Part shown: in pieces, positions 19,537 to 64,000 of the stretch
Numbering within the stretch: the first letter of the stretch is position 1
Layout: the number at the start of each line of letters is the position of its first letter
DNA from: Cellulosimicrobium sp. Marseille-Q4280
GTDB taxonomy: Bacteria; Actinomycetota; Actinomycetes; Actinomycetales; Cellulomonadaceae
Direction of reading: 5' to 3'
Length of the DNA stretch: 64,000 nucleotides
Assembly: GCF_943181405.1 (NCBI RefSeq)
Contig: NZ_CALPBY010000001.1
Span: 1,013,649-1,077,648, forward strand
Notes under the pieces: generated by a model
The model's input: only the letters and a program-made list of their open reading frames with translations
What the model was told of the DNA's origin: nothing
The model's database searches: none
Translations under genes and position numbers: made by a program

Positions 19537-19631
19537 GAGGCGGGGCGGGGTGTCGCGGGTCTACCATCCGCCGCTCGTCCCTCGCGGCTCCCGCCAGGCC
19601 CACCACGACCCGCGACACCCCGCCCCGCCTC
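19537..19631. repeat. Inverted-repeat element with 45-bp conserved core, copy 1
   Basis: Two perfect 25-bp inverted arms (19537-19561 and 19607-19631, beginning GAGGCGGGGCGGGGTG) enclose a 45-bp core starting TACCATCCGCCGCTCGTCCC. The core matches copy 2 at 63796-63840 (opposite strand) at 43 of 45 positions, while the arms differ between copies yet remain self-complementary. The core contains its own stem-loop. It lies between the metG start and the end of the upstream rpf paralogue. No coding potential is evident. Confidence 0.8.
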
Positions 19632-19670
19632 ACCCTCGGTGTGCTGCTCACCCTCCAGCGGGACGGCGAC

Positions 19671-19703
19671 GGGCCCGCGACCTCCGCCAGAGGTCGCGGG
19701 CCC
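19671..19703 (-). terminator. Terminator of the rpf paralogue at 19724
   Basis: GGGCCCGCGACCTC, the loop CGCCA and GAGGTCGCGGGCCC form a perfect 14-bp stem directly downstream of the stop codon. Confidence 0.75.
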
Positions 19704-19723
19704 GCGGCGAGGCGTGCGTCGGC

Positions 19724-63691: not shown

Positions 63692-64000
63692 CTAGCAGGC
63701 CGCCGCGGCGCGTCCTGTCGATCGGACGAGCGGCGACGACCTGCTGGAGGCGGCGCACCGAGCGGCTGGCGGTGGAGCGAGGGGTGGGGCGGGTCGTGGT
63801 GGGTCTGGCGGGAGCCGCCAGGGACGAGCGGCGGATGGTAGACCCGCCCCGCCCCTCGCGGAACCGTCCGCCGCGGACCCGTGCACGGGCGGACGACAGC
63901 CGAGGGCGGCCTTGAGGAACTCCTGCGTGCGCTCGTGGGTCGGGTTGGTGAACATCGTCTCGGGGTGAGCCTCCTCGATTAAGTGCCCCTGGGCGAACAT
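63692..64000 (-). CDS. Amino-acid ABC transporter ATPase, C-terminal part with odd tail
   Basis: The frame is open at the window edge. The visible start GHLIEEAHPETMFTNPTHERTQEFLKAAL is the normal C-terminal end of GlnQ-type ATPases (polar amino acid uptake). Such proteins usually stop here, but this frame continues for about 70 more residues (LGCRPPVHGSAADG and on) straight through the inverted-repeat element at 63777-63859 and ends at 63692. The extra tail is Pro/Arg-rich and has no family similarity, so the original stop has probably been lost. Confidence 0.7.
   Translation of the reverse strand: MFAQGHLIEEAHPETMFTNPTHERTQEFLKAALGCRPPVHGSAADGSARGGAGLPSAARPWRLPPDPPRPAPPLAPPPAARCAASSRSSPLVRSTGRAAAAC
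63777..63859. repeat. Inverted-repeat element with 45-bp conserved core, copy 2
   Basis: Arms 63777-63795 and 63841-63859 (GCGAGGGGTGGGGCGGGTC type, one mismatch) enclose a core at 63796-63840 that matches the reverse complement of the core at 19562-19606 in 43 of 45 positions. The core contains CTGGCGG-GAG-CCGCCAG, a perfect 7-bp stem-loop. It lies inside the tail of the ABC ATPase reading frame. Confidence 0.8.

Follow-up and report, generated by a model that had tools for sequence, protein, structure and literature searches.

Introduction

REP sequences are short palindromes that occur in many copies per genome; PMC6006769 describes them as proposed to move as single-stranded hairpins, with some of them lying in-frame, and insertion sequences (ISs) have been reported to insert into REPs (PMC1525189). 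Rickettsia palindromic elements are described in PMC10969869 as palindromic sequences that sit in-frame within unrelated genes. Intrinsic terminators are a third point of reference: according to PMC5381666 they show compensatory evolution, and those of Bacillus cereus contain 4.02% G-U pairs.

The element reported here resembles the REP/BIME sequences in being a short dispersed palindrome of high copy number and mainly intergenic position, whereas it differs from REP in that its stem changes freely while its apex is fixed, and in its length of about 90 nt (21–65 nt in REP). With the Rickettsia palindromic elements, compared by description, it shares in-frame insertion in coding genes, which concerns a minority of its copies, but it lies mostly outside genes (21 of 185 copies are inside) and belongs to a different phylum. 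Like the intrinsic terminators it is a strong hairpin behind genes that undergoes compensatory change; unlike them it has a 45-nt structured apex, rarer wobble pairs, and copies within genes. Its conserved loops on covarying helices also recall the structured RNAs of Rfam. Nothing exceeded the gathering score, however, when the window and 14 loci were searched, and a relaxed search of five loci returned weak hits only; a known Rfam family was thus rejected as an explanation. A literature search, made without most subscription papers and without bioRxiv preprints, found no description of the element, and the preliminary description, too, could put no name to an actinobacterial element of this layout.

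In its behaviour the element follows the REP sequences, yet two features that define them are missing, namely the GT[AG]G foot and the Y1 transposase, and we regard it as a new, REP-like form of the dispersed palindromic element. Genomes of several actinobacterial families carry dozens of these strongly structured copies behind and inside housekeeping genes. If the element is maintained as DNA, it points to an undescribed hairpin-reading mobiliser and offers a natural record of palindrome arms that change yet stay complementary; if it is maintained as RNA, it represents an unrecognised class of transcript-end elements.

Two Copies in the Window

The window, by which we mean the whole 64-kb stretch of DNA that was analysed, contains two copies. 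The strand given is that on which the C-rich strand of the copy lies, and both copies were read directly.

19537..19631, + strand: copy 1, whole element
19537..19561, + strand: copy 1, 5' outer arm of 25 bp, which varies among copies and ends in GTC
19562..19570, + strand: copy 1, unpaired conserved TACCATCCG
19571..19574, + strand: copy 1, 5' side of the inner stem (CCGC), covarying in other copies
19575..19583, + strand: copy 1, conserved 9-nt loop TCGTYCCTC
19584..19587, + strand: copy 1, 3' side of the inner stem (GCGG)
19588..19606, + strand: copy 1, unpaired conserved CTCCCGCCAGRCCCRCCAC
19607..19631, + strand: copy 1, outer 3' arm, starting with GAC
63777..63859, - strand: copy 2, whole element
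63796..63840, - strand: copy 2, core, the same as copy 1 at 43 of 45 positions
63777..63795 and 63841..63859: copy 2, arms, 19 bp with one mismatch

This is the layout of the preliminary description, and it stands as given: perfect 25-bp arms enclose the 45-nt core of copy 1 (19562–19606), arms of 19 bp with one mismatch enclose that of copy 2, and the cores differ at two of 45 positions. That the arms differ between the copies while each pairs with its own partner can be read directly in the window. A 22-nt piece of the core has two exact matches in the window and none in 100 shuffles, even with up to three mismatches allowed. Perfect inverted repeats with a stem of at least 15 and a loop of 3–70 number two in the 64 kb, namely copy 1 and a hairpin at 19670–19704, while five first-order resamplings of the 64 kb gave 0, 0, 0, 2, and 0. 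On either strand, and as DNA or RNA, the folding z-scores are -8.1 to -9.7 for copy 1 and -5.5 to -6.5 for copy 2, and in every case 0 of 200 shuffles folded as well.

Copy 1 is flanked by metG and a gene for a G5-domain protein, both on the - strand. The hairpin at 19670–19704, which adjoins copy 1 and lies 20 nt behind the G5-domain gene, is a plain one (15 bp, 5-nt loop) and is a candidate ordinary terminator. Copy 2 lies behind a nucleoside hydrolase gene and also behind an ABC-type frame of the opposite strand. It should be mentioned that this - strand frame (63692–64000) extends into copy 2, and that the contig ends where the window ends; a second genomic copy of the 3' end of the frame (L005) has a stop codon that precedes the element.

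Anatomy and Covariation

Read on the C-rich strand, the element consists of a variable outer arm, a closing GTC, TACCATCCG, an inner stem of 4–6 bp, the loop TCGTYCCTC, the other side of the inner stem, CTCCCGCCAGRCCCRCCAC, a closing GAC, and the second outer arm. The apex, that is, the core, is near-fixed, while the outer arms vary between copies yet remain complementary. The closing pairs covary in other genera (for example, GTC/GAC becomes GGC/GCC). Arms are common to some unrelated sites. In the genome from which the window comes the flanks outside the arms are only weakly conserved, and the idea of broad conserved flanks was rejected.

Alignment A1 leaves out L005 and L035, whose arms pair poorly, and alignment A2 holds 16 copies only, all with a 5-bp inner stem. 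Among 16 copies, 92.5% of cells pair, both sides have changed in 22 of 26 pairs, and the covariation score is 0.673, against 0.145 for shuffles and at most 0.151 for slid controls. In a cross-genus alignment of 42 copies, which was fitted to the structure, 94.6% of cells pair, double changes occur in 26 of 26 pairs, the score is 0.871 against 0.182, and G-U accounts for 8 of 1073 cells. Orthologous sites repeat the pattern. A helicase-like gene carries the element in six species, among which several arm sequences occur, all of them self-complementary in full or nearly so; the element behaves likewise in an NHL/thioredoxin-like gene of two genera and between infB and rbfA in six species. Because the loop is near-fixed while the long stem changes on both sides together, something maintains the fold. 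The preliminary description had proposed selection on a folded DNA or RNA, and had pointed to a stem-loop within the core. The latter is real, since it covaries in other copies, and the arms covary in alignments of many copies; with the further copies described below, both of the outcomes that the preliminary description named as refuting it are contradicted. Between DNA and RNA, the evidence of the wobble pairs discussed below leans to DNA, without proof.

The same pairing might arise without selection on the stem, if template switching (quasipalindrome correction) copied one arm onto the other, so that pairing would be a product of mutation and only the core would be kept. Such mutation is documented at imperfect inverted repeats (PMC7202029), and single-sided intermediates are nearly absent among our copies. 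Against this, about a quarter of the copies have a 3x3 mismatch after about 19 pairs, beyond which the stem resumes, and this mismatch persists uncorrected between paired stretches; the inner stem of 4–6 bp covaries among copies as well; and the fixed apex and the dispersal are left unexplained. We consider template switching unlikely as the whole explanation, though as a means of upkeep of the arms it is still a serious rival.

Copy Number and Taxonomic Range

The source genome (4.86 Mb in 12 contigs) contains the element at no fewer than 40 separate places found by BLAST, plus four partial or arm-only pieces, with 40 of the 104 first-look candidates scored; one of the 40 places is truncated where its contig stops, and two others that lie at contig ends are apparently a single copy. 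A covariance model built from 16 copies (R1) gives 47 matches in this genome, a few of which may be the opposite strand of a copy already counted (two such were seen). R1 matches occur in all 17 genomes of the genus, at 12–83 per genome, counts that opposite-strand matches may inflate and scoring limits may lower. The preliminary description had taken the two copies for a dispersed element; searches of the full genome and of related genera have turned up many more. In the source genome several contigs (C1, C3, C5, and C8) break off in or close to a copy of the element, and the repeat or its fold probably disrupts the assembly there.

Among the matches listed, the element occurs in records titled Cellulosimicrobium, Luteimicrobium, and, in the case of one strain, Sphaerisporangium. 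In the family, stricter filters with at most 19 candidates scored per genome gave a match in 58 of the 221 genomes, spread over 12 of the 25 genera, and copy number was uneven even within one genus, with 15 matches in one genome (G037) and none in another (G036). Across the order, matches come from 22 of the 396 genomes, which represent 13 of the 110 genera, and in the class 13 of the 394 genomes gave a match with a broader model (R2); by eye, most of the weaker R2 matches retain a long paired stem together with the TCGTTCCTC loop or a GCCAG motif. A third model (R3), based on six copies that belong to a single distant type, found matches in 17 of the 22 genomes from the family of that type, and as many as 79 in one genome. 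Related elements are therefore found in several families of the Micrococcales, and weaker ones elsewhere in the class. Searches of viral contigs, plasmids, and phages, one of which was a scan with an exact pattern, found no element, and carriage by a plasmid, phage, or virus was rejected because no carrier was found.

Placement Relative to Genes

With a simple gene finder written for the purpose, and viewed from the C-rich strand, 185 non-identical copies are distributed as follows: 60 copies in convergent gaps, five in divergent gaps, 47 in tandem gaps with the C-rich strand as the sense strand, 31 in tandem gaps with the G-rich strand as the sense strand, 21 in predicted frames, and 21 at locus edges, counts that include some orthologues more than once. 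Gaps of at least 100 nt that contain the element comprise 43 tandem, 35 convergent, and four divergent ones, compared with 136, 20, and 97 among gaps without it; the contrast was assessed with Fisher tests, and the convergent excess is inflated because the element lengthens its own gap. Of 34 C-rich-sense copies, 28 begin no more than 53 nt after the stop codon, and 22 G-rich-sense copies lie at 45–400 nt from it, orthologues again counting more than once.

Copies within genes are in-frame, use several frames on both strands, and fall within linkers or tails: one, for instance, separates the phosphoesterase domain of LigD from its ligase domain, and another follows a RodA domain; the pattern behind this list was loose and gave spurious matches, so only entries with core peptides were used. 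Selection on an encoded peptide was rejected, because several frames on both strands are used. The element also stands behind dnaA, ackA, infB, and nrdE in more than one family or genus, and behind dnaA and ackA in both orientations (one member of each of the four was named by Pfam and the rest by eye).

The tight spacing behind stop codons in the C-rich sense is the pattern expected of a 3'-end signal, and the element could accordingly act as RNA at the 3' ends of transcripts, either as a terminator, working both ways where genes converge, or as an mRNA-stabilising hairpin with an apex-binding protein. The enrichment of convergent and depletion of divergent gaps fits such a role, as does the presence of the element at the 3' ends of dnaA, ackA, infB, and nrdE in different families. 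At one convergent site, moreover, a hairpin of about 23 bp (by eye), unrelated to the element, is present in a species that lacks it, and compensatory change is, as noted above, known from terminators. Against this, a T-tract (TTTT in the 25 nt that follow the first 18 arm pairs) occurs in one of 130 copies on one strand and in none of 130 on the other. Copies lie inside genes, both orientations occur behind the same genes, and between infB and rbfA the element stands beside a separate ordinary hairpin. A terminator scan of the window, which sees loops only up to 8 nt, found none.

Wobble Pairs and the Choice between DNA and RNA

Wobble pairs were tallied in 120 distinct copies, after ten of 130 with poorly pairing arms had been left out; the counts include related copies and hence are not independent events. 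On the C-rich strand the outer 18 pairs comprise 2101 Watson-Crick, eight G-T, 31 A-C, and 20 other pairs, and the inner stem of the same 120 copies comprises 556, four, seven, and 14, respectively. By comparison, 14 tRNAs in the same loci have 30 G-U pairs among 308, so wobble is much rarer in the element. Since an A-C pair read on the C-rich strand corresponds to G-T on its complement, the little wobble that exists leans to the G-rich strand. The ratio of G-T to A-C is 1:11 for copies with the C-rich strand as sense, 3:6 for those with the G-rich strand as sense, 5:8 in convergent gaps, and 3:11 in coding copies. The wobble strand thus tracks the element and not the transcript, and the G-rich lean holds even where the C-rich strand is transcribed, which counts against an element acting as RNA.

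The scarcity of wobble and its strand point, without proof, toward a fold of DNA rather than RNA. Mutation bias could mimic the strand lean, and two-way transcription or template-switch correction could equally deplete wobble; two-way use as a terminator, in particular, would by itself exclude G-U pairs. With the evidence of placement and pairing taken together, we regard an RNA element of transcript ends as a doubtful explanation that nevertheless keeps an appreciable probability.

Differences between Species and a Uniform Subfamily

The presence of the element differs between species, and its loss removes the whole stem. The helicase gene of one genome (G005) lacks a 102-nt stretch that takes in the two arms and is bounded by a GCA repeat, and another genome (G006) shows a partial loss; the 102-nt difference is more likely a loss than an insertion. 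Between infB and rbfA the element is present in six of 15 readable species, and an ordinary hairpin directly behind infB is kept in 14 of the 15. The element in the linker of ligD has one orientation in two relatives and the opposite one in four; one of these four (L102) has a copy followed by a half-remnant in the other orientation, which we read as a new copy next to what is left of the old one. Among the sites compared, no clean new insertion with a target duplication was found.

These sites bear on two ways in which the element might have been assembled. If the core alone were mobile and had inserted into the loops of pre-existing hairpins such as terminators, the arms would belong to the site; this would suit arms that are unrelated between sites, the orthologous site that has a hairpin without the core, and genes that carry either orientation. 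However, the ordinary hairpin behind infB adjoins the element in the six species that have it, the nine species without it show no emptied copy of the arms, the loss in G005 takes the arms too, and some unrelated sites have arms in common. Insertion of the core by itself is very improbable.

The other is the MITE of the classical kind, whose conserved terminal inverted repeats would be acted on by a transposase in trans; the preliminary description had raised it as an element mobilised through its ends. The element is dispersed and palindromic, and one of its subfamilies is part of a longer repeat of 225–280 bp. The ends, however, are its variable part and the apex is conserved, the reverse of what a transposase reading terminal inverted repeats would leave, and conserved terminal inverted repeats are absent. 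Neighbouring genes have no family in common, no target duplication was seen among the sites compared, and the sole precise difference, which is bordered by GCA on either side, resembles a loss. A MITE is accordingly hardly to be believed.

The subfamily just mentioned shows how uniform the element can be. Copies with at most six differences from the commonest subtype number 47, of which 43 are identical across 87 bp; 20 of the 47 were fetched owing to equal scores, and among the remaining 27, 23 are identical. The columns adjacent to the 87 bp are only about 50–90% conserved, and the 225–280 bp repeat in which the subtype lies has about 85–94% identity.

A Possible DNA Hairpin Family

Taken together, the copy number and range, the covariation of the stem, the conserved apex, the scarcity of wobble and its strand, the in-frame copies, the two orientations in ligD, and the identity of the 87-bp subfamily with differing flanks lead us to prefer a REP-like dispersed palindromic element of actinobacteria that is kept as a DNA hairpin and would be moved by a putative trans-acting protein, a reading to which we give about even weight for and against. 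Copies at the same sites across genera are fitted as well by a host function, which tells against a mobile element.

I speculate that such a DNA hairpin might work as follows. When the strands part, during replication or under supercoiling, the palindrome would fold as a DNA hairpin, and a putative trans-acting protein would read the single-stranded parts of the apex, more likely those of the G-rich strand. Recognition of the apex would copy or convert the element and so hold the apex fixed, while the arms would be required merely to pair. Their pairing would be sustained by the need to fold, template-switch correction probably helping, and hosts may put up with copies that lie downstream of stop codons or within the linkers of proteins, much as they do with REP and Rickettsia palindromic elements. 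A bolder form of the DNA hairpin reading, possible but tentative and sooner doubted than accepted, is an old, class-wide, mobile family spread and homogenised by a candidate apex-reading enzyme not of the Y1 (REP/IS200) type, in which the arms would be a folding device and palindrome-centred conversion would keep the 87-bp subfamily identical.

Several candidate movers were tried. The preliminary description had suggested looking for a transposase or a REP-associated protein with the same ends; the Y1_Tnp domain of the TnpA-REP/RAYT type was found in none of the 17 genomes of the genus, while a control found it in five of 14 known genomes, and a mover of the RAYT/IS200 type was rejected. The GT[AG]G foot of REP, set for this purpose at the end of the perfect arm, occurs in two of 130 copies on one strand and in none of the 130 on the opposite strand. 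That a gene family might accompany the element was likewise rejected, because 546 neighbouring proteins fell into orthologue-like groups and one general ABC-type group, as judged by eye from the 25 largest clusters.

Companion Repeats and Nearby IS Elements

A companion repeat of about 17–20 bp, GAGGTAGWRCCGYGGTC, often in tandem, accompanies one subfamily and lies in the flanks of many copies (for example, L009, L016, L062–L081, and L184). Short tandem repeats also lie near two inverted copies that are about 470 bp apart (L018/L020, G000:C7:260306-260857), and at another locus (L002/L041, G000:C7:78024-78244) about 65 bp from the right half of a copy recur twice more in tandem behind it. In one genome (G008), five copies of an IS110-family IS were found (L307–L311), each near a copy of the element and each sitting inside a short companion repeat, GAGGTAGAGCYGTGGTC; L312, in another genome (G007), is a counterpart without the IS. 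The position of this IS beside five copies of the element parallels the insertion of IS elements in REP sequences.
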